Notes: generated from the letters alone by a model not told the origin. Shown: positions 1-10,088, counted from the stretch's first letter. The stretch: DNA of 10,088 bases from a bacterium (GCA_021789095.1 JAJYJX010000088.1:1-10088), one strand, 5' to 3'. Translations and numbers: made by a program.

Positions 1-828
1 ATCATGACAGCCACGCCCATACCCCGCACCCTTGCCATGACCGCGTACGGGGACCTTGATATCTCCGTCATACGACAGATGCCGCCGCACAAAAAGCCTG
101 TGAAGACCACGCTTTTTTACAAGGAGAGCCAGAGGAAGGAGATCTACATACTTTTGCGTGACGAGATGAAAAAGGGCTTCCAGGTTTATGTCGTTTATCC
201 GCTTATAGAGGAATCCGATGCGCTCGAGCTGATGGCCGCGACAAAGATGTACGAGGAGCTGAAAAAGGAATTCAACGGATTGACCGTGGAGCTGCTTCAC
301 GGCAGGATCAGAAATGACGATCGGGAACGGATCATGACCGCTTTCAGGCAGGGCAGGGTCAACATGCTTGTTGCCACGACCGTGATAGAGGTCGGCATTG
401 ATGTGCCGAATGCTACGGTAATGCTGATCGAACATGCAGAACGGTTCGGCCTTTCGCAGCTCCATCAGCTCAGGGGCAGGGTGGGCAGGGGCGCTGAACA
501 GGCTTTATGCATACTTTTCGCGCACAGCCTTCCTGTGGCTGCGCGCAAGAGGCTTGGGGCAATGGTAAAGACAAACGATGGGTTTAAGATAGCGGAGATG
601 GACCTCGAGATACGAGGTCCCGGAGAGATGCTCGGCATAAAGCAGTCGGGCATGCCGGACTTCAGGATGGCAAGCATTGTCCACGACATCGATATACTGA
701 AGCTCGCAAGGGACACCGCATTCGATATTGTACAGGGCACTCTGCATCTCGAACCGTACGAAAAGGATATACTTTTCGGGCATCTTTACAATTCGGGCAG
801 GAGAACAATCAGCTTTATAGAGGTTTAA
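1..828 (+). CDS. recG: ATP-dependent DNA helicase RecG, C-terminal part (5' end outside window)
   Basis: RecG is a cytoplasmic superfamily 2 helicase that remodels stalled replication forks and Holliday junctions. The frame is open from base 1, and the first ATG (base 4) lies inside helicase motif III (MTATPIPRTLA), so the true start is upstream. Numbering from that Met, motif IV is near 61-72 (VYVVYPLIEESD). Motifs V and VI run at about 122-163 (LVATTVIEVGIDVPNA, then HQLRGRVGRG). The RecG-specific TRG region follows at 183-215 (RLGAMVKTNDGFKIAEMDLE, then RGPGEMLG). About 275 residues are visible, which fits the C-terminal 40% of a typical RecG. The missing part would hold the wedge domain and motifs I-II. 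It ends with TAA, followed immediately by a palindromic repeat without a T-tract, so no intrinsic terminator is evident. It is visibly more GC-rich than the lipoprotein genes downstream. The assignment is secure. Confidence 0.97.
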   Translation: MMTATPIPRTLAMTAYGDLDISVIRQMPPHKKPVKTTLFYKESQRKEIYILLRDEMKKGFQVYVVYPLIEESDALELMAATKMYEELKKEFNGLTVELLHGRIRNDDRERIMTAFRQGRVNMLVATTVIEVGIDVPNATVMLIEHAERFGLSQLHQLRGRVGRGAEQALCILFAHSLPVAARKRLGAMVKTNDGFKIAEMDLEIRGPGEMLGIKQSGMPDFRMASIVHDIDILKLARDTAFDIVQGTLHLEPYEKDILFGHLYNSGRRTISFIEV

Positions 829-1007: not shown

Positions 1008-1036
1008 TTGACTTTAACGTTCTTATTCAGTATTTT
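1008..1036 (+). promoter_or_regulatory. Sigma70-type promoter for the lipoprotein array
   Basis: A -35 box TTGACT (1008-1013) is followed after exactly 17 bases by a -10 box TATTTT (1031-1036). This is 5/6 and 4/6 to the consensus, with ideal spacing. Transcription would begin near 1042-1044, giving an untranslated leader of about 30 nt before the start at 1072, with the Shine-Dalgarno AAAGGAG at 1058-1064. A short inverted repeat (GTATTT 1030-1035, AAATAC 1040-1045) overlaps the -10 box and the probable start site. It could be an operator half-site pair but is too short to assert. Confidence 0.6.
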
Positions 1037-1071: not shown

Positions 1072-2664
1072 ATGAAAACCAAAAGCGTTGTACTAATTCT
1101 TTTATTAACAGCTCTGACATGGTTCGCAGGTTGCTCTGACAGCAGAAACGTCACCGTCAAGTCAGCAGACAGTGTAGGTGTTATAACCGGAAGGGTTATA
1201 GATTTCTCAACACAGCAGCCCATAGCGAATGCTCAGGTCATACTCAAAACAGGCATCAATTTTATGGTCACGAAGACCATATCAGACTCAAACCCGAACC
1301 CGAACCTGAACAGGACCGGTGTGTTTACGTTCAACGGTGTGCCTGCAGGGCAGTATACCATCAAGATCGTCGCAACAGGGTATGCTGTAATACAGGATGA
1401 TAGTTCAATGGATTACAACTCTTATACAAACAGCAACAACACGGTGGTCTATGATTACGGCAATATACCGCTTTACAAAGGGTATAACCTTGATGTTTAT
1501 GTAAACTCAAACGGAACAGCACTGAGCGGGATACATATTTATACGGTAGAGAATGATACAATATGCGGGTATATAGGTAATTCCTGGTTTTATTCCCCTG
1601 AGATCACCGCAACAACCGATGCAACAGGCCATGCTACACTGTCAGGCTTAAGCCAGTGTGAGTATTACGAGATTGTGGCACCTGCAACGGATGTGAACGG
1701 TGACGGGATCTATGACTATCAGACAGGCATTGCTTACTCGCCTGATCTTCCTCTGGCAGGGAGTAATATGGCGCTCTCATTGAACATGCCGCCAGCACAG
1801 AGATACGACAACATCAGCGTGCTTGCGACAAGTGCCGTTAATTATCCGAATCTGTCCACCGGTAGCTGGTACTACGACCCATTTATGGGCTATGTCTATG
1901 CTGCTGTTGCACCACAAGGCGATATAGTTTATGTATTCAATTATCCTGTATCACTTGATTATGTATCGCTTGATTATGGTAATGTCAGGGTCGTAGCAAC
2001 GGATCCAAACTATGGACATATTTTGAACACACCTTTCAGTGCTACACTGTCAGCAGGCAACACAGTGCTTACCATCCACCCGACTTCAAACCTTGCGATC
2101 AATAACACATACTTGTTATCTGGTCAGGTAAGCGCAAACATAGGCGGGGCGTTGCAGACATATGCCCTTGGCTCATCTCCGCTGACTTTGTGGTATGTAT
2201 TCGACAACACATCTACAGGCGTCAGCAGCACGCTGAGCAGCAGCGGGTTTACCATTACTGCTGATAACTTCAACGGAGTCGTGAACAGCGGTGTTGCATC
2301 AGCGGTTTATCTCAAGTTCCCGGAATTTGTACGCGGCACATACAAAATTCTTGCTGTAACAAATGCAGGTACAACTACCTATTATGGTGCATTCGGTGCG
2401 CAGGGTAACCTTTCAGGTTCTACAAATGACAGGATCTATTATGAAGGCAATGTAGGCGGAGGCGGATGTGAAGGCCTGAACTGCGGTCCTGCCGGCCTAA
2501 AGGTCGTTTACAGGGTACCATTGGGCATTAATCTTGCTGATGATTCGTCATTGGGCGGCGGCGCACCCGGGGTGAACAACGTGACCGTTTCCCTGGATTT
2601 AACAGACACAGAAGGCAACAGGTATGTTACACCAGCAGGCGGTATAACAATCTCTATAAACTAA
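1072..2664 (+). CDS. Secreted lipoprotein with carboxypeptidase-regulatory-like and Big_5-like Ig domains, array copy 1
   Basis: The 530-residue product is a predicted exported lipoprotein. It has a positive N-terminus and hydrophobic core (residues 1-17), then a lipobox ending F-A-G-C, with lipidated Cys21 followed by Ser-Asp. Residues about 36-105 (GVITGRVIDFSTQQPIANA through GVPAGQYTIKIVATGYA) match the carboxypeptidase regulatory-like beta fold. A second similar domain covers about 137-205. It ends in DVNGDGIYD (207-215), a DxNxDGxxD loop typical of calcium binding. Residues about 284-365 resemble a bacterial Ig-like (Big_5) domain, with TVLTIHPTSNLAINNTY as its signature. The rest is beta-rich, with Thr, Ser, Asn and Tyr abundant. 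Cys165/196 and Cys466/471 are conserved in all three copies and may form disulfides. No enzyme motif is visible, so a surface adhesion, scaffold or matrix role is inference. The start has AAAGGAG seven bases upstream. Its signal peptide differs from those of copies 2 and 3. Confidence 0.88.
   Translation: MKTKSVVLILLLTALTWFAGCSDSRNVTVKSADSVGVITGRVIDFSTQQPIANAQVILKTGINFMVTKTISDSNPNPNLNRTGVFTFNGVPAGQYTIKIVATGYAVIQDDSSMDYNSYTNSNNTVVYDYGNIPLYKGYNLDVYVNSNGTALSGIHIYTVENDTICGYIGNSWFYSPEITATTDATGHATLSGLSQCEYYEIVAPATDVNGDGIYDYQTGIAYSPDLPLAGSNMALSLNMPPAQRYDNISVLATSAVNYPNLSTGSWYYDPFMGYVYAAVAPQGDIVYVFNYPVSLDYVSLDYGNVRVVATDPNYGHILNTPFSATLSAGNTVLTIHPTSNLAINNTYLLSGQVSANIGGALQTYALGSSPLTLWYVFDNTSTGVSSTLSSSGFTITADNFNGVVNSGVASAVYLKFPEFVRGTYKILAVTNAGTTTYYGAFGAQGNLSGSTNDRIYYEGNVGGGGCEGLNCGPAGLKVVYRVPLGINLADDSSLGGGAPGVNNVTVSLDLTDTEGNRYVTPAGGITISIN
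1588..1800 (+). repeat. Near-identical DNA block A, lipoprotein copy 1
   Basis: This 213-bp stretch matches 3190-3402 in copy 2 with only three differences that I can see, all at synonymous third positions. It encodes the second regulatory-like domain and the DVNGDGIYD loop. The flanking stretches are much more divergent, which is the pattern of recent gene conversion or partial duplication. Confidence 0.8.
2128..2276 (+). repeat. Near-identical DNA block B, lipoprotein copy 1
   Basis: This 149-bp block matches 3736-3884 with three visible differences. It covers the end of the Ig-like domain and the following SSPLTLWYVFDN segment. The offset between copies is 1608 bp here, against 1602 for block A, because the variable stretch in between is two codons longer in copy 2. 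Confidence 0.78.
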
Positions 2665-2669
2665 GCAAG

Positions 2670-2750
2670 TAAGGAGGATATCATGAAGAAATTACTTTTA
2701 TTACTGTTTACGGGTATGGTAGTTGCTGCGGGCTGCAGCGACCAGAGGAA
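2670..2750 (+). repeat. Duplicated ribosome-binding site and signal-peptide region (copy 2; partner 4273-4353)
   Basis: The intergenic Shine-Dalgarno, spacer, start codon and signal-peptide coding stretch of copy 2 is repeated almost base for base at 4273-4353 before copy 3, offset by 1603 bp. Copy 1 has a different leader and signal peptide. The duplication unit therefore includes the translation-initiation region, which points to tandem duplication of a whole cistron within an existing operon. Confidence 0.75.
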
Positions 2751-4266
2751 TATCACGCTAAAGTCTGCTGACAATACAGGCGTGATTAGCGGGAGGGTTA
2801 TAGATTTTTCAACACAACAGCCCATAGCAAATGCACAGGTAATACTTTCTACGGGCGGCAATTTTATGGTCACGAAGACCATATCGGACTCGAACCCGAA
2901 TCAAAACCTGAACAAGACCGGCATGTTTTCGTTCAACGGCGTTCCTGCAGGGGATTATAAATTAAGGATCGTTGCAACAGGTTATGCTGTGATAGGGGCT
3001 AACGGCACAATGTATTACAACTCTTATACAAACAGCAACAACCCGGTGGTTTATGATTACGGCAATATACCGCTTTACAAAGGGTATAACCTTGATGTGT
3101 ATGTAAACTCCAACGGAACAGCACTGAGCGGCATACATGTTTATACTGTTGTAAATGATGTAATATGCGGGAATATAGGTAATTCATGGTTTTATTCCCC
3201 TGAGATCACCGCAACAACCGATGCAACAGGCCATGCTACACTGTCAGGCTTAAGCCAGTGTGAGTACTACGAGATTGTGGCACCTGCAACGGATGTAAAC
3301 GGTGATGGGATCTATGACTATCAGACAGGCATTGCTTACTCGCCTGATCTTCCTCTGGCAGGGAGTAATATGGCGCTCTCATTGAACATGCCGCCAGCAC
3401 AGCGGTACGACAGCATACAAGTACTTGCATCAAGCGCTGACAACTATCCTAATCTGCACTATTCTGCCAACTGGTTGTATGATTGGTATCTTGGCGGAAA
3501 TATCTATGCTGCTGTTGCACCACAAGGAGATATAGTTTATGTATTCAACTATCCGGTATCGTTTGATTATGCATCCCTTGATTACTACAATGTCAGAGTT
3601 GTAAATACGGATCCCAATTATGCGCATCGTTTGAATGCACCTATCAATGCAACACTGTCAGCAGGCAACACAGTGCTTACCATCCACCCGACTTCAAACC
3701 TTTTGGTTAATAACACATACGTGTTATCAGGTAAGGTAAGCGCAAACATAGGCGGGGCGTTGCAGACATATGCCCTTGGCTCATCTCCGCTGACTTTGTG
3801 GTATGTGTTCGACAACACATCTACAGGCGTCAGCAGTACGCTGAGCAGCAGCGGGTTTACCATTACTGCTGATAATTTCAACGGGGTTGTGAACAGCGGT
3901 GTTACATCAGCGGTTTATCTCAAATTCCCTGAATTTGTGCGCGGCACATATAAGATCCTTGCATATACATCCAATGGAGCTTCCACATATCTTGGTTCAT
4001 TTGGTAATCAGGGTAACCTTTCAGGTTCTACAAATGACAGGGTCTATTATGAAGGCAATATAGGCGGATGTGAAGGCACGAACTGCGGTCCTGCCGGTCT
4101 GAAGGTCGTTTACAGGGTACCATTGGGCATTAATCTTGCTGATGACTCATCACTGGGCGGCGGCGCACCCGGGGTTAACAACGTGACCGTTTCTCTGGAT
4201 TTAACAGACACAGAAGGCAACAGGTATGTTACACCAGCAGGCGGCATAACACTTTCTATAAATTGA
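2683..4266 (+). CDS. Secreted lipoprotein, array copy 2 (mosaic of copies 1 and 3)
   Basis: The 527-residue paralogue lies 18 bp after copy 1. Its signal peptide (MKKLLLLLFTGMVVAAGC, lipid Cys18) is nearly that of copy 3. Domain order is as in copy 1: a carboxypeptidase-regulatory-like domain (about 33-102), a second one (about 134-202), the DVNGDGIYD loop (204-212), a Big_5-like Ig domain (about 282-364), and a C-terminal beta region with the Cys463/468 pair. From about residue 110 onward it is almost copy 1 at the DNA level, apart from short divergent stretches around 244-275, 293-320 and 424-436. The first 34 residues and the GDYKL segment near 90-94 follow copy 3. This looks like a recombination product between neighbours. 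Shine-Dalgarno AAGGAGG sits at 2671-2677, five bases before the ATG. It is certainly co-transcribed with copy 1. Its molecular function is unknown. Confidence 0.88.
   Translation: MKKLLLLLFTGMVVAAGCSDQRNITLKSADNTGVISGRVIDFSTQQPIANAQVILSTGGNFMVTKTISDSNPNQNLNKTGMFSFNGVPAGDYKLRIVATGYAVIGANGTMYYNSYTNSNNPVVYDYGNIPLYKGYNLDVYVNSNGTALSGIHVYTVVNDVICGNIGNSWFYSPEITATTDATGHATLSGLSQCEYYEIVAPATDVNGDGIYDYQTGIAYSPDLPLAGSNMALSLNMPPAQRYDSIQVLASSADNYPNLHYSANWLYDWYLGGNIYAAVAPQGDIVYVFNYPVSFDYASLDYYNVRVVNTDPNYAHRLNAPINATLSAGNTVLTIHPTSNLLVNNTYVLSGKVSANIGGALQTYALGSSPLTLWYVFDNTSTGVSSTLSSSGFTITADNFNGVVNSGVTSAVYLKFPEFVRGTYKILAYTSNGASTYLGSFGNQGNLSGSTNDRVYYEGNIGGCEGTNCGPAGLKVVYRVPLGINLADDSSLGGGAPGVNNVTVSLDLTDTEGNRYVTPAGGITLSIN
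3190..3402 (+). repeat. Near-identical DNA block A, lipoprotein copy 2
   Basis: This is the partner of 1588-1800, offset by 1602 bp. Directly downstream the sequence diverges into a variable segment of different length in each copy. Confidence 0.8.
3736..3884 (+). repeat. Near-identical DNA block B, lipoprotein copy 2
   Basis: This is the partner of 2128-2276. A third, slightly more diverged shared block covers the C-terminal coding ends (2482-2661 against 4084-4263, roughly ten differences). Confidence 0.78.
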
Positions 4267-4285
4267 AGCAGGTAAGGAGGATATC

Positions 4286-5869
4286 ATGAAGAAATTACTT
4301 TTACTACTGGTTGCGGGTATAGTAGTTGCTGCGGGGTGCAGCGACCAGAGGAATGTCACGCTGAAGTCTGCCGACAATACCGGCGTGATTACAGGGAAGG
4401 TTATTGACTTCTCAACGAGATCGCCTATAGCAAATGCCACGGTGATATTGACAACGGGCGGGAATAACATGGTCACCAAAACGATCTCGGACAGCAACCC
4501 GAACCCTAATCTGAACAGGACAGGCATATTTGTGTTCAACGGTGTGCCTGCTGGTGACTATAAATTAAAGATCGTTGCAACAGGTTATGCTACGGTAGAG
4601 ACCGAGAACTCTCTTTACTACAACGACTACACAAATACAAACAACACGGTTGTGTACGACTTTGGAGAAATCCCGATTTATAAGGGATTCAATCTTGATG
4701 TTTATGTGGACTCAAACGGGACCATGCTTCCTGGTGTTACTGTATATACCGCTAATAACGGTGTAAGCTCCGGCTGCCAGTTTATCGTACAAAACGGTTC
4801 ATATTTCTACTCGCCTGAGATTACAGCAACAACAGATGGATCAGGACATGCCATATTACAGGGACTCAGTGAGTGCAACCGTTACTTGATCGTAGCACCT
4901 GCAATAGATGTTAACGGCGACGGCATATACGATTACCAGACAGCCGCTGTTACTTACTACGGCCCCACGCGCAGCAACACAGCGCTGAACCTAAACATGG
5001 CGCCGGCTCAGAGATATGATGGCATATCCCTGATTGCAAGCAGTGCTGATAACTTCATGAATTTAATGAACACAGGTTACTTTGATATTTGGAATGGCGG
5101 GGTCTACAATGCAGTTGCACCTCAGGGTGATATGGTTTTTGTGTTCAACTACCCTGTTGCGGCAGAAAATATAACCATGGTTAATTGGGATACCTATGTT
5201 ATAAACACGGATCCAAACTACTTCGTGGACGTCAATACACCTATCACTGCGACACTCTCAGCAGGCAATACAGTGCTTACAATACATCCGGTAGCAAACC
5301 TTGTCATAAACAATACGTATTGGCTTGGCGGCAATGTAAGTGCAAATATAAATGGTGCTTTACAAGTAGTATCGCTTAATAATCTGTACGATCCGATTAC
5401 AGGCAATGCATCATTACAAAAATGGTATGTATTTGACAACACAGCAGCAGGGGTGGGCGGAGCAAGCTTCACAATAACCGCCGACAACTTTAACGGCACT
5501 GTAAACGGTGGCGGTGGCTTCACGGATGTATACCTTAAATTCCCTGAATGGGTATCAGGCACATGGCAGGTTATTGGATATACTTCAGGCGGTGCATCAA
5601 CATATTCCGGTGCATTTGGCCCTACTGGTAACTTTATAAATGGTTATGTGTGGTATGAAGGCAATGGAGCAGGCGCATGTGATGGGACAACGTGTCCTGG
5701 TACAAAGGTTGTATTTATATACGACATTACAGCAAATGCAGGTATTCCAACTTTCCAGGATGATACATCATTCGGCGGTCCTTCTGCGAATAGCGTGACA
5801 GTTGCTATAGATGCATCTGATGCAGAGGGTAACCACTTTTCGGGTATAATGACACTGCCTGTGAATTAA
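4286..5869 (+). CDS. Secreted lipoprotein, array copy 3 (most divergent)
   Basis: The 527-residue third paralogue lies 19 bp after copy 2, with Shine-Dalgarno TAAGGAGG at 4273-4280. The signal peptide ends V-A-A-G-C (lipid Cys18) and is followed by SDQRN as in copy 2. The domain plan is shared: a carboxypeptidase-regulatory-like domain (about 33-102), a second one (about 134-206), DVNGDGIYD (208-216), and a Big_5-like region around 283-362 with TVLTIHPVANLVINNTY. The C-terminal third is clearly different from copies 1 and 2. It lacks the YRVPLGINLADDSSLGGG segment but keeps the paired Cys465/470 and the terminal pattern NSVTVAIDASDAEGN. Cys164 and Cys197 are also kept despite insertions around them. 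It carries more Trp and fewer copy-1-like blocks, so it is probably the older paralogue. A strong terminator begins 25 bp after the stop. Function is unknown; a surface or matrix role is inferred. Confidence 0.88.
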   Translation: MKKLLLLLVAGIVVAAGCSDQRNVTLKSADNTGVITGKVIDFSTRSPIANATVILTTGGNNMVTKTISDSNPNPNLNRTGIFVFNGVPAGDYKLKIVATGYATVETENSLYYNDYTNTNNTVVYDFGEIPIYKGFNLDVYVDSNGTMLPGVTVYTANNGVSSGCQFIVQNGSYFYSPEITATTDGSGHAILQGLSECNRYLIVAPAIDVNGDGIYDYQTAAVTYYGPTRSNTALNLNMAPAQRYDGISLIASSADNFMNLMNTGYFDIWNGGVYNAVAPQGDMVFVFNYPVAAENITMVNWDTYVINTDPNYFVDVNTPITATLSAGNTVLTIHPVANLVINNTYWLGGNVSANINGALQVVSLNNLYDPITGNASLQKWYVFDNTAAGVGGASFTITADNFNGTVNGGGGFTDVYLKFPEWVSGTWQVIGYTSGGASTYSGAFGPTGNFINGYVWYEGNGAGACDGTTCPGTKVVFIYDITANAGIPTFQDDTSFGGPSANSVTVAIDASDAEGNHFSGIMTLPVN

Positions 5870-5893: not shown

Positions 5894-5923
5894 AAAAGCC
5901 CCGCTTTTGGCGGGGCTTTTTTT
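5894..5923 (+). terminator. Intrinsic terminator of the lipoprotein operon
   Basis: An 11-bp perfect stem (5894-5904 with 5910-5920, core AGCCCCGC/GCGGGGCT) with a five-base loop TTTTG is followed by a run of seven T (5917-5923). It lies 25 bp after the stop codon of copy 3. The A-rich 5' side gives a shorter T run on the other strand, so weak bidirectional action is possible. Confidence 0.93.
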
Positions 5924-6011
5924 GTCGCATCAATGCGATAGAAAAGAAATGCATTTGAAAATAAGGAAGTTGGGGAAGTTTGTGTGGTAAGCGTAAGACT
6001 GCGTTCTGCCG

Positions 6012-6080
6012 TGTCATTCCCGTGAAAACGGGAATCCAGAGAAAACAAAAGACTGGATTCCCACTTCCGTGGGAATGACA
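6012..6080. repeat. Double-hairpin dispersed repeat, copy A (69 bp)
   Basis: Terminal inverted repeats TGTCATTCCC (6012-6021) and GGGAATGACA (6071-6080) bracket two hairpins. The left one is ATTCCCGT-gaaa-ACGGGAAT (6016-6035) and the right one ATTCCCAC-ttcc-GTGGGAAT (6057-6076). A GGATTC/GAATCC pair links the two halves. A second copy is at 7117-7181. The sequence belongs to the 'GTCATTCCCGCGAAAGCGGGAATCC' type found in many genomes and resembles the ATTCCC/GGGAAT Neisseria dRS3 repeats; that likeness is from memory. It sits between two convergent transcription units. Confidence 0.85.
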
Positions 6081-6101
6081 AAGAAGGGAAATGGGGATGA
6101 C

Positions 6102-6147: not shown

Positions 6148-7062
6148 TTACAGCCCCGAAAATGGCACCGGTATGAAGGTTATGATCAAGATGATCATCG
6201 CAAGCACGCCTATAAATTTCCTTTTCGTGTCCAGCGGCTGGTAAGGATTCATAGGGCTCGGGTGCCCCATACCCAGGATCAATATGATAAGCGCCCAGAA
6301 AAGCCATACCTCCCATCCCCATATACCCATCACAACAAGGGCTATTAATGCTGCCCTTGCAATAAGGTGGTACCACCTGCCGAATAATGCATAAGCAATG
6401 TGCCCGCCGTCAAGCTGGCCTATTGGAATAAGGTTCATTGCGGTAACGAACATGCCTATCCATCCTGCAAAAGCGATCGGGTTAAGTCCGAGCTCATAGC
6501 CCGCAGGTATGCCCGGTCTTACAAGGAAAGATATGAGTGAAACGAGCAGAGAGTCGCCTAATCTGAACCCTGTGTTTGCTGTTAAAGAAACCAGCGGAGA
6601 CATCTTTATGCCTATAATCAGGGCAGGAAGAGCGACTACAAAACCTGATAGAGGTCCTGCTGCACCTATGTCAACGAGTGCATTTCTATCCGGTATGGGT
6701 GATTTCATGCGTATAAATGCACCAAACGTACCGAGTATGTTCGGGGCAGGTATGAAGTAGGGCAGGGTTGCAACAACATCGTGGTGTTTTGACATGAGGA
6801 AATGTCCCATCTCATGCGACAACAGTATCGCTATTAACGTGAGAGCAAAGGGCAGGCCTTTATATGCTTCAGCAGGATCCGTAAATGGATTTACACCGTA
6901 CTGAAAAGCACCTGCAAAAAGGACTGCTGTAAACGTTATGCAAAACAGTATTAAGGGTGTTAATACCTTTACCTTCGGTCTTTCAGGCTGTTTGAAGCCG
7001 TAAGAATCGTCCTTTAACCGTTCAAGGTCTATCTGTGTATTGTCGAGATAATCTTTGTTCAT
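6148..7062 (-). CDS. M50 family membrane metalloprotease (site-2 protease type)
   Basis: This 304-residue polytopic membrane protein belongs to the zinc-dependent intramembrane proteases, which cut transmembrane segments of substrate proteins. The zinc motif HEMGH is at residues 83-87, inside a hydrophobic segment (about 70-92). The second catalytic signature NLIPIGQLDGGH is at 210-221, where Asp218 would be the third zinc ligand. The GTFGAFIRMKSPIPDR stretch (111-126) followed by DIGAAGPLSG (131-140) is typical of the bacterial/plant EGY1-like M50 subgroup. Further hydrophobic segments lie near 33-55, 136-154, 195-212, 234-266 and 283-300. No PDZ domain is present. The start is supported by AAAGGA at 7071-7076 on the minus strand, about eight bases upstream. 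It is the last gene of the minus-strand group, 143 bp after recO. The family is secure; the substrate cannot be inferred. Confidence 0.93.
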   Translation of the reverse strand: MNKDYLDNTQIDLERLKDDSYGFKQPERPKVKVLTPLILFCITFTAVLFAGAFQYGVNPFTDPAEAYKGLPFALTLIAILLSHEMGHFLMSKHHDVVATLPYFIPAPNILGTFGAFIRMKSPIPDRNALVDIGAAGPLSGFVVALPALIIGIKMSPLVSLTANTGFRLGDSLLVSLISFLVRPGIPAGYELGLNPIAFAGWIGMFVTAMNLIPIGQLDGGHIAYALFGRWYHLIARAALIALVVMGIWGWEVWLFWALIILILGMGHPSPMNPYQPLDTKRKFIGVLAMIILIITFIPVPFSGL

Positions 7063-7116: not shown

Positions 7117-7181
7117 GTCATTCCCGCGAAAGCGGGAATCCAGAAACACAAAACTGGATTCCGCATCAAGTGCGGAATGAC
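7117..7181. repeat. Double-hairpin dispersed repeat, copy B (65 bp)
   Basis: This is the second copy of the element at 6012-6080, with ends GTCATTCC (7117-7124) and GGAATGAC (7174-7181). The left hairpin is ATTCCCGC-gaaa-GCGGGAAT (7120-7139) and the right hairpin ATTCCGCA-tcaag-TGCGGAAT (7158-7178). The base changes relative to copy A are compensatory in both stems. It fills the recO to M50 intergenic gap, so it would be transcribed within the minus-strand unit. Confidence 0.85.
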
Positions 7182-7205
7182 AGAAAGAAGATTTTAGTAT
7201 AGGTA

Positions 7206-7985
7206 TTAATATATAATCTTTTGAATTAATAACTTATCAATCATATCCCATAATTTCAATGGCCTATCAATATAAGCACTCATTATACGCATTGTGAAAC
7301 TGAATATGACAGAGGGGATATCAACTGTCAGAAATCTATTTATGTCGATATCATTACTGTTTATGGTTTTTATGAGTCTTAGCAATGATGCAGGTATGCG
7401 GTATGCCTCGGTATTTGAAGTTATGCACGATTTGCATATTAGTTTACCTGTTTTGATTACAAGGTTAACTTCATCATTAGAAAACGGCCTGCCGCATGAT
7501 TCGCATTTTTCCACTGCACGGAGTAAGCCGATTTCTTTTAACAGGTGCAGTTCATAGAACAATCTGATCTGGTTTAAGAAATTATTAATTCCCGGGCCCA
7601 TACCTGATTCAAGACAATAGAGTGTGTATAGAAGTATATCAAATAACTGCGTATGGCTTTGGTGTTCAGGGAGCATTACATCCGTAATACCTAACAGGTA
7701 AAAGAGCATGAGGATTTTATCGTAGTCTTTTTTCAGGTTTATGAAGTAGTTATCAACCGTTGCATGGCTTATATGCATGAGCTGATATGGGTTCTTATCA
7801 ACGAAGCCGAACTCTCCCGTGTTGCCTGCCTCGAAAGCGCCCGGGAATCTCTTCCTGCTGCTTGCACCACCTTTTACGATTGCTTTTAACTTGCCTTCGT
7901 CCTTTGAGAAAATGGTAACGATCAGGTCCGATTCAAGATACCGTAACTTGTTCAGTACAATGCCCTGTGATGTGAATATATGCAT
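7206..7985 (-). CDS. recO: DNA repair protein RecO
   Basis: RecO is the 259-residue mediator that, with RecR, loads RecA onto SSB-coated single-stranded DNA in RecF-pathway gap repair. The N-terminal OB fold covers about 1-78. The family opening is visible (QGIVLNKLRYLESDLIVTIF, then SKDEGKLKAIVKGG with the basic ASSRKR patch). The C-terminal helical region carries a zinc-finger set, Cys161-x2-Cys164 and Cys184-x2-Cys187, with CGRPF after the first pair. Length is normal for RecO. The start is fixed by an in-frame stop at 7992-7994, three codons upstream. The gene begins 11 bp after the chemoreceptor stop and has no recognisable Shine-Dalgarno in that gap, so translational coupling is likely. 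The identification is secure. Confidence 0.95.
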   Translation of the reverse strand: MHIFTSQGIVLNKLRYLESDLIVTIFSKDEGKLKAIVKGGASSRKRFPGAFEAGNTGEFGFVDKNPYQLMHISHATVDNYFINLKKDYDKILMLFYLLGITDVMLPEHQSHTQLFDILLYTLYCLESGMGPGINNFLNQIRLFYELHLLKEIGLLRAVEKCESCGRPFSNDEVNLVIKTGKLICKSCITSNTEAYRIPASLLRLIKTINSNDIDINRFLTVDIPSVIFSFTMRIMSAYIDRPLKLWDMIDKLLIQKIIY

Positions 7986-7996
7986 GCAGGTTTATG

Positions 7997-10088
7997 TTAT
8001 GCAACAAAGAGCTTTATAGCATCATTGAGCAGGTCCAATTCCAATGCGAGCTTGCCGATAATATTTTCAAGTTCTGTAATGTCTTGTTCATTATTTTTGA
8101 TATGATTGATTAATCCACCTGCCGAATCTGCAGAGAAAGTCACCTGGTTCTTGATGTCAATTGCAAGACTGTCATTTATATAACCTGCAAACGTTTTTAC
8201 GTTCTCGATGGAACTATTTATGGATATTAACGCCGCATTATGGGTGCTGCTCATTTCAGACAGCTTATCAAATGTTGACCCCATACTTGCGAGTCCGTTA
8301 TTTATGTCAGACATGGTGTTGATTGTTGATGAAATATCCTCTATGAGTTTTTCAAAGTCAGATGCCATAGATAAACCCTGGGCAGTGCCTTGTCCCGGCA
8401 CGGGCTGGTCTATGGTTTTATTGTTTTGAACTGTATTGGTCAGCGTATTTACTGTCGAGATTGAAATCTCGTTTATTCTATGTGTAATGGAGTCAATGCT
8501 GTTTAAAGAGTGTTGTGCCATGTTAATAAAACCGCTTGCGTCTTTTATACTTGAAAAAATCCCATCAACATTTCTTCTCACCCTTGTTATGTAACTTGAT
8601 ATCTCCCTGGAGCCTTTTCTTGCCCTGTCTGCCAGTTTCTTGATCTCTTCCGCTACAACCCTGAAATTCTTTCCTTCTGTCTGGGGTGAGGATGCAAGTA
8701 TGAAAGCGTTGACAGATAAAAGATTGGTCCGTTCAGCCACATTATTTATTATTCCGAGCATCTCGTCGGCCTGCTGGATATGGGTAAGAAATGTGGAAAG
8801 CAGCGATGTAACCCCGTCTATAATGTTTTGTGTTTCGCTGAAGAGGACTGCTATGTCCTTGTTCAGTTCGGCACATCTGGCGTTCAATGTCTTTAAGGTG
8901 CCGACAGACACCGAAAATTGTTCCATCAAGCCGTTTACCTTAAGAATGTCTCCGTTTATGGATCGCGAAGATGAGACAACTGCGGCAAATATGTCCTTTA
9001 ACTTGATAATGTTGTCCCTTATATCTTCGTGGATCTTTATATTGTTTACAAGTTGCCTTAACGTTCTTGATATCCATGTTGAGACCGTGTTTATTTGTTC
9101 GGTTATTTCCCTGTTTCTTTGAATGGCGTGTGATACGTTCTTGCTGTTTTTGAGTATTTTATCATTGAATGGGGCACTTGTTTTCATGATCTGATCGGAA
9201 ATTTCTCTTATGGAATTGATTATGCCCAGCAATTCACCCGTGGATTTTGACTGTTCTGAGATCACTGATTTTATTCTGACAATGGATTCCGAGGTTGATC
9301 TTATTATAGTATTCATGCCGGATATATTATCGAAGGTACGAGATTTTGACTCTCTGAAGTTCATTACGAGAGACCTCATGTCGACCAGTATCATTCCAAG
9401 CTCATCTGTTGTTACTATTTCCGGCAAAATAGTCAGTTCTTTCCTGGATAGTTTCAGGGAATAATCCGTCAGATTTTTTTCATGCGAAGCGATATCATCC
9501 GATATAAAGAATGTAATTACCATTATGGCTATGAGCATGAATATGCCAGCCAGAAGCATGTTGTGGACAAAACCGGACAGCTCTGTTCTGTATAAACTTT
9601 TATCAACGCCAATAACGATCCTGCTGGTGCTGTTGTCAATGGAAACCGTTTTAAACTGGGAAAGCAATACCTGGGTGCCGGACGCATCGGTCACAATCGC
9701 GCTGTTATCCAATTGTTTTGCTGTATCTTTTCCGAGCTGAATGCCTGAATAATTTTTTATGCTCTTGTCCTGTGCATTGTACAGATAAAAGCTGTATTTG
9801 CCTTTGAACTTGTCCGATAAGTTCTTAAGGATGTTGTCCGCGTCAGGGTTGTTGTTAAGGGTATCGTTGAGATAGGATATCGTGTTCATGGTATTATTAT
9901 ACAGGTTTTCCTTTACATACTTTTGGGCTGAGTTGTAACTGGCATAAAGGATTACGAGAAAAGCACAAAGCGATATAAGGCTGAAAACAGCGATAAGCCT
10001 GTACCGGAAGGGTATATAGATTGCCTTTAAGTCTGTAGTATTCAGCTTTCTTATTGCTATTGAAATGTATGACTTTACGACAAGATTG
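7997..10088 (-). CDS. Methyl-accepting chemotaxis-like membrane receptor with degenerate signalling tip (5' end outside window)
   Basis: The frame reads without a stop to the right edge. The 66 codons upstream of the ATG at 9889 contain no ATG, GTG or TTG start, so at least 696 residues belong to the protein. Numbering from the 9889 Met: TM1 is upstream (DNA 9935-9997). A sensor region of about 125 residues, possibly a small Cache-like fold, follows (KYSFYLYNAQDKS near 31, IVIGVDKSLY at 91-100). TM2 is at 111-130. A HAMP-like stretch includes TTDELGMILVDM (160-171). A long coiled-coil signalling domain with the hairpin tip at about 384-420 (NVAERTNLLSVNAF, then NFRVVAEEIKKLADRA) comes next. 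A Pro/Gly-rich break, QPVPGQGTAQG, lies at 495-505. The tip is recognisable, but the canonical NAAIEAARAGE reads NAFILASSPQT. It probably senses a periplasmic signal; whether it drives CheA is uncertain. Confidence 0.88.
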   Translation of the reverse strand, partial: NLVVKSYISIAIRKLNTTDLKAIYIPFRYRLIAVFSLISLCAFLVILYASYNSAQKYVKENLYNNTMNTISYLNDTLNNNPDADNILKNLSDKFKGKYSFYLYNAQDKSIKNYSGIQLGKDTAKQLDNSAIVTDASGTQVLLSQFKTVSIDNSTSRIVIGVDKSLYRTELSGFVHNMLLAGIFMLIAIMVITFFISDDIASHEKNLTDYSLKLSRKELTILPEIVTTDELGMILVDMRSLVMNFRESKSRTFDNISGMNTIIRSTSESIVRIKSVISEQSKSTGELLGIINSIREISDQIMKTSAPFNDKILKNSKNVSHAIQRNREITEQINTVSTWISRTLRQLVNNIKIHEDIRDNIIKLKDIFAAVVSSSRSINGDILKVNGLMEQFSVSVGTLKTLNARCAELNKDIAVLFSETQNIIDGVTSLLSTFLTHIQQADEMLGIINNVAERTNLLSVNAFILASSPQTEGKNFRVVAEEIKKLADRARKGSREISSYITRVRRNVDGIFSSIKDASGFINMAQHSLNSIDSITHRINEISISTVNTLTNTVQNNKTIDQPVPGQGTAQGLSMASDFEKLIEDISSTINTMSDINNGLASMGSTFDKLSEMSSTHNAALISINSSIENVKTFAGYINDSLAIDIKNQVTFSADSAGGLINHIKNNEQDITELENIIGKLALELDLLNDAIKLFVA

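Follow-up and report, generated by a model that had tools for sequence, protein, structure and literature searches.

A tandem array of three lipoprotein genes, most likely the diverged and triplicated form of an envelope lipoprotein gene carried once in related genera

Three lipoprotein genes of nearly equal length stand in tandem between recG and an M50-type membrane peptidase gene in a bacterial draft genome (G000; 2.15 Mb, 92% complete). The question raised by this locus is whether the array represents a gene that other lineages carry once, a different gene that entered the same place, or a set of paralogues kept for another purpose. The window analysed is the whole of contig C20, 10,088 bases in length, and its features are collected in Table 1. 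The first-pass annotation had described three adjacent cistrons of similar size, and complete open reading frames were indeed found for all of them, with gaps of 18 and 19 nt between neighbours. In protein sequence, copies 1 and 2 are 86% identical, copies 1 and 3 62%, and copies 2 and 3 65%; a search of G000 itself returned these three copies and no further ones. Strong Shine-Dalgarno sites, also listed earlier, are present at all three genes (AAAGGAGATC at one copy and AAGGAGGATATC at two), and the annotated terminator was recovered downstream of copy 3 as a strong hairpin and T run. The array's own promoter did not hold up equally well: the candidate site is well placed, yet the consensus scan gave 12 promoter-like matches in the region against 12.0 expected by chance. 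The three copies are probably co-transcribed and share one terminator. A palindromic intergenic repeat (CATTCCCGTGAAAACGGGAATCCAG...CTGGATTCCCACTTCCGTGGGAATGAC) occurs twice in the window and has 47 matches in G000 including itself, as an abundant REP/MITE-like element.

Table 1. Positions of features in the window and of the 398-residue lipoprotein genes in related genomes (window numbering unless a locus is named)
Feature	Position	Strand	Evidence or remark
recG, 3' end (contig begins within the gene)	1..828	+	NCBIfam RecG equivalog, E = 1e-122; left flank of the slot
Possible sigma-70-type promoter, TTGACT-17-TATTTT	1008..1036	+	Consensus scan, 9/12
Copy 1, 530-aa lipoprotein	1072..2664	+	Lipobox, CarboxypepD_reg, putative TTR-like domain 2 carrying DVNGDGIYD, putative Ig/Big_5-like domain, and a C-terminal extension that includes C-x4-C
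96-nt block of copy 1, identical to 3307-3402 in copy 2	1705..1800	+	Longest common substring; recent exchange
32-nt block at the Shine-Dalgarno site and beginning of copy 2, repeated exactly at 4272-4303 (copy 3)	2669..2700	+	
Copy 2, 527-aa lipoprotein	2683..4266	+	Plan as copy 1; mosaic
Copy 3, 527-aa lipoprotein	4286..5869	+	Plan as copy 1; most diverged
Rho-independent terminator, AAAAGCCCCGC-TTTTG-GCGGGGCTTTTTTT	about 5894..5925	+	Read from the sequence; stem also listed by scan
Palindromic intergenic repeat	5985..6090 and 7117..7190		
M50-type membrane peptidase gene, convergent	6148..7062	-	Pfam PF02163, E = 4e-21; right flank of the slot
recO	7206..7985	-	
Chemotaxis-like gene region	7997..10087	-	
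398-aa lipoprotein genes	L012:7311-8504, L111, L112, L113		

The annotated lipobox is found in every copy (FAGC-SDS in copy 1, AAGC-SDQ in copies 2 and 3), at residues 18-21 of a signal peptide that, as read from the sequence without a predictor, has a basic start and a hydrophobic stretch. Two carboxypeptidase-regulatory-like domains had been proposed. The first, CarboxypepD_reg (PF13620, about residues 35-105), lies above the curated Pfam cut-off of 32.3 bits in all three copies (38.8-41.6 bits; E = 1e-9 to 2e-10), but the second stays below it, since the domain-2 region alone gives E = 0.074 in copy 1 and 0.061 in copy 3 and has no match in copy 2. The proposed Big_5-like Ig domain (PF13205) is likewise sub-threshold, with a best score of 15.0 bits against a cut-off of 23.6 (E = 0.04) in copy 2 only and no match for the copy 3 segment searched. 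The DxNxDGxxD loop was recovered in all copies as DVNGDGIYD, and so was the Cys-x4-Cys pair (C466/C471 in copy 1). Moreover, a second conserved cysteine pair, absent from the first-pass annotation, lies in domain 2 (C165/C196 in copy 1). Each mature protein possesses four cysteines besides the lipid-bearing one, and these two pairs may form two disulfides per protein. The C-terminus, previously called Thr/Asn/Tyr-rich, shows no such enrichment over the rest of the protein and is Gly-rich instead (15-17%), and the mature proteins have a predicted pI of 4.1-4.5. A domain search of the last 163 residues in isolation gave no credible match. Structure prediction was of poor quality, with a mean pLDDT of 35.3 for full-length copy 2 and of 44.3 for domains 1-2; Foldseek matches of the latter model were generic β-sandwiches (best E = 0.016, TM about 0.17), which are meaningless and were dropped. 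Domains 2-4 may adopt β-sandwich folds.

The earlier statement that no described family has this architecture agrees with our survey: Pfam, NCBIfam, PHROGs and the PDB give no full-length match, to a characterised protein or otherwise; neither NCBIfam nor PHROGs has a named family that covers the proteins, and the PDB sequence search gave nothing credible and no solved structure covering them. No hydrolase or other catalytic family was matched in Pfam, NCBIfam or the isolated-domain tests, and a literature search found no paper on such an architecture. No full-length relative outside G000 was detected in 41 genomes searched with copy 2, nor in nine genomes of the phylum searched with the three-copy profile, and the C-terminal half (residue 240 to the end) retrieved the window's own copies alone from 386 whole genomes. 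Scans of genome contigs and of viral contigs, derived from the three-copy alignment, gave no relative either; each used two short peptide patterns and is a weak negative. One match was obtained by tblastn against plasmids, confined to the CarboxypepD_reg region. Profile matches in G001, G002, G003 and G006 were rejected as full-length relatives, because they are confined to the part corresponding to domain 1, in proteins that are larger or of another kind (TonB-receptor-like, the 244 + 334 aa tandem lipoprotein pair described below, and a 2312-aa open frame). PF13620 is a promiscuous β-sandwich domain rather than a protein family, with 7-21 matches per genome of the phylum, and is uninformative on function. 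In G001 and G006 (loci L007 and L010), a multihaem c-type cytochrome gene adjoins that of a TonB-dependent-receptor-like protein whose N-terminus is a CarboxypepD_reg domain.

A candidate counterpart of the array is instead indicated by its genomic place. The window's recG is 84% identical to that of L012, and both recG and M50 are 74-84% identical to those of the located relatives; for M50 these comprise six genomes of the group besides G000. The slot between the two holds, in the sister genus, a single lipoprotein gene of 398 aa (G001 and G007; loci L012/L107 and L104). The G001 slot and L012 (record 'bacterium isolate DX4.bin27') share a contig, the G007 contig includes the M50 side without the recG side, and that of G008 stops short of the slot. 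Of the four genera in this phylum-level group, three carry the 398-aa family, each as a single copy. In G002, G005 (genus 3) and G003 (genus 4) it is not found beside M50 but elsewhere in the genome, as full-length, single-copy orthologues with 51-55% identity. Copy number is therefore not fixed among relatives, with three copies here, one in the slot of the sister genus and one elsewhere in two other genera. The 398-aa form went undetected in G000 (92% complete) by profile search even at E<=10, and the array was found in none of the other genomes searched; hence the two forms exclude each other per genome at this completeness.

Both forms share a lipobox, CarboxypepD_reg, a candidate second TTR-like domain and a candidate Big_5-like domain, in addition to the recG-X-M50 position in the sister genus. 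The 398-aa protein differs in being single-copy and about 27-29% identical, and in possessing no C-terminal extension, DVNGDGIYD loop or C-x4-C pair. When a profile of the three copies was compared with one of five 398-aa proteins, the two were collinear over 299 columns, from residue 1 to 338 of the array proteins (97.6%, E = 2.9e-12). As the signal peptide and CarboxypepD_reg common to both could inflate this score, both were removed and the comparison was repeated, giving a score of 40.0 (E = 7e-5), while 60 column-shuffled profiles scored at most 23.1 and an unrelated tandem lipoprotein family of the same phylum (A8) scored 17.5 beyond domain 1. With domain 1 included, A8 matches the array at 96% over 92 columns. 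Domains 2-3 of the array match the 398-aa profile at 62.8%, and the Big_5-like part alone at 6.8% (E = 0.005).

The array is most likely the 398-aa gene, triplicated, strongly diverged and equipped with a C-terminal extension. This reading as an orthologue is the one best supported by the evidence taken jointly: the shared slot and orientation, the common order of domains, the mutual exclusion of the two forms and the profile similarity left beyond domain 1. The strongest competitor, which we consider unlikely though deserving of serious attention, is that a different CarboxypepD_reg lipoprotein gene entered or replaced the occupant of a permissive recG-M50 slot and was then triplicated. The low identity between the two families fits such a replacement by a look-alike, as do the weak domain-by-domain homology (that of the Big_5-like part above all) and the fact that searches with the 398-aa family, by single sequence or by profile, miss the array. 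Lipoproteins of this type also turn over elsewhere: in G005 and G006, a pair of 244 and 334 aa lies by a glycosyltransferase gene, and G000 has no such pair at the corresponding position. However, an unrelated newcomer would have to occupy the identical slot in the same orientation and domain order, and the similarity beyond domain 1 is specific to the 398-aa family, the other tandem family being without it.

The 244 + 334 aa pair (G002, G005 and G006) resembles the array in consisting of tandem lipoproteins with an N-terminal CarboxypepD_reg domain, but it differs in genomic place and in having no profile similarity past domain 1, which rules it out as a source of the array. At L161, L163 and also L162, the pair precedes a putative outer-membrane protein for whose G002 and G003 copies Pfam gives no credible match. 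G000 has only a shortened version of this protein (contig C90, L175 4865-5668) beside the glycosyltransferase gene, where the lipoprotein pair is missing.

The copies within the array bear traces of exchange. Where codons vary silently, copy 2 sides with copy 3 against copy 1 at 19 sites and with copy 1 against copy 3 at 12 within the first 110 codons, compared with 15 and 103 sites, respectively, beyond that point (Fisher P about 1e-7; the cut-point was scanned over five values, all of which gave P about 1e-6 or less). The runs of agreement are also non-random by permutation (P = 2e-4), and along copies 1 and 2 diverged stretches alternate with blocks of near identity (aligned codons 175-249 and about 360-425). 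The silent-site split, the identical blocks and the alternating divergence indicate that copy 2 is a mosaic, as from unequal crossing-over or gene conversion, with its 5' 110 or so codons copy-3-like and the remainder copy-1-like; uneven substitution rates could contribute in part to this pattern. Copies 1 and 2 differ by dN = 0.098 and dS = 0.394 (dN/dS about 0.25), and the pairs with copy 3 have a lower ratio, at a dS near saturation. The proteins are, by these estimates, under purifying selection.

The first-pass annotation had suggested an array for surface diversification, and the variable copy number that it named as support (three against one in the slot) was borne out; an excess of replacement over silent changes was not found. 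An antigenic-variation-like or adhesin-repertoire array, with paralogues kept to vary an exposed surface, would agree with tandem paralogues, differing copy number and mosaic exchange, and there are patches where replacement exceeds silent change (e.g. codons 75-125 and 450-475). These patches do not amount to an overall excess, and the low dN/dS, the near-identical blocks and the recombinant copy 2 show exchange and homogenisation rather than diversification of an antigenic type. The exchange appears homogenising rather than a shuffling of silent cassettes; all three copies, from one strain, appear intact and expressible, and the contig has neither recombinase nor silent cassette. Hence we regard this explanation as improbable. 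Slightly more doubtful still is the broader proposal of recombining, copy-variable surface lipoproteins of one lineage in an uncultured, dsrA-carrying phylum, with a C-terminal β-domain of undescribed fold that would form an adhesin or a mineral- or polymer-binding layer. Least probable of all is a hetero-oligomeric envelope complex of three specialised subunits, which would suit the equal lengths, the likely co-transcription and a copy 3 that is far diverged yet retains plan and cysteines, but is opposed by the one copy of the sister genus and by the long identical blocks of copies 1 and 2, contrary to their specialisation.

Returning to the triplicated orthologue, an envelope lipoprotein gene carried once in other genera would have undergone a lineage-specific tandem triplication and, during or after it, changed extensively and acquired a C-terminal addition of some 130-190 residues, while its copies would keep trading sequence through gene conversion or unequal crossing-over. 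The products would be exported by Sec and acylated at the lipobox cysteine. In the Lol rule of E. coli, the residue at +2 steers lipoprotein sorting, with Asp set against Ser. The Ser at +2 of the array proteins suggests an outer-membrane location, as do the neighbours of the 398-aa gene. In G002 and G005 it is flanked by a TonB-dependent receptor (PF00593, E = 2.5e-33 for the G002 copy tested) and a porin-like protein with a weak alginate-export match, and in G003 the gene after it codes for a putative outer-membrane protein with a signal peptide, which in other places comes after the unrelated tandem lipoprotein pair. At the outer membrane, the array proteins may form a stalk of about four β-sandwich domains, stabilised by two disulfides and possibly by a DVNGDGIYD loop of the Ca type. 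A non-catalytic role is most likely, either as a ligand- or polymer-binding, perhaps adhesive, module or as the accessory lipoprotein of an outer-membrane β-barrel. For the explanation as a whole, i.e. a triplicated orthologue with exchanging copies that forms an outer-membrane stalk with a binding or accessory role, our confidence is a little better than even.

Duplicated, adjacent surface lipoproteins are known from OspA/OspB of Borrelia and from the SusE/SusF-type glycan-binding lipoproteins. These are likened to the array as adjacent paralogous, non-catalytic, β-rich outer-membrane lipoproteins (the location of the array being predicted), but no sequence relationship was found and no Sus-type transport operon surrounds the array. 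The array most likely represents an uncharacterised envelope lipoprotein that has expanded in one lineage; the family is new but of an ordinary kind, namely duplicated envelope lipoproteins. It offers a one-to-three expansion at a fixed slot in which recombination between the copies is visible, in a protein family that has neither a name in Pfam, NCBIfam or PHROGs nor a solved relative. If surface exposure and binding prove true, it would add a lineage-specific envelope component to a host group apparently known mainly from metagenomes.

That group carries dissimilatory sulfite reductase, as dsrA scores above its curated cut-off in seven of the nine genomes (contig C104 of G000 and six others). 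Downstream of the array, the order of the methyl-accepting-chemotaxis-like, recO and M50 genes is conserved across four genera of the group, and in relatives the methyl-accepting-chemotaxis-like genes occur as two in tandem of about 840 aa each.
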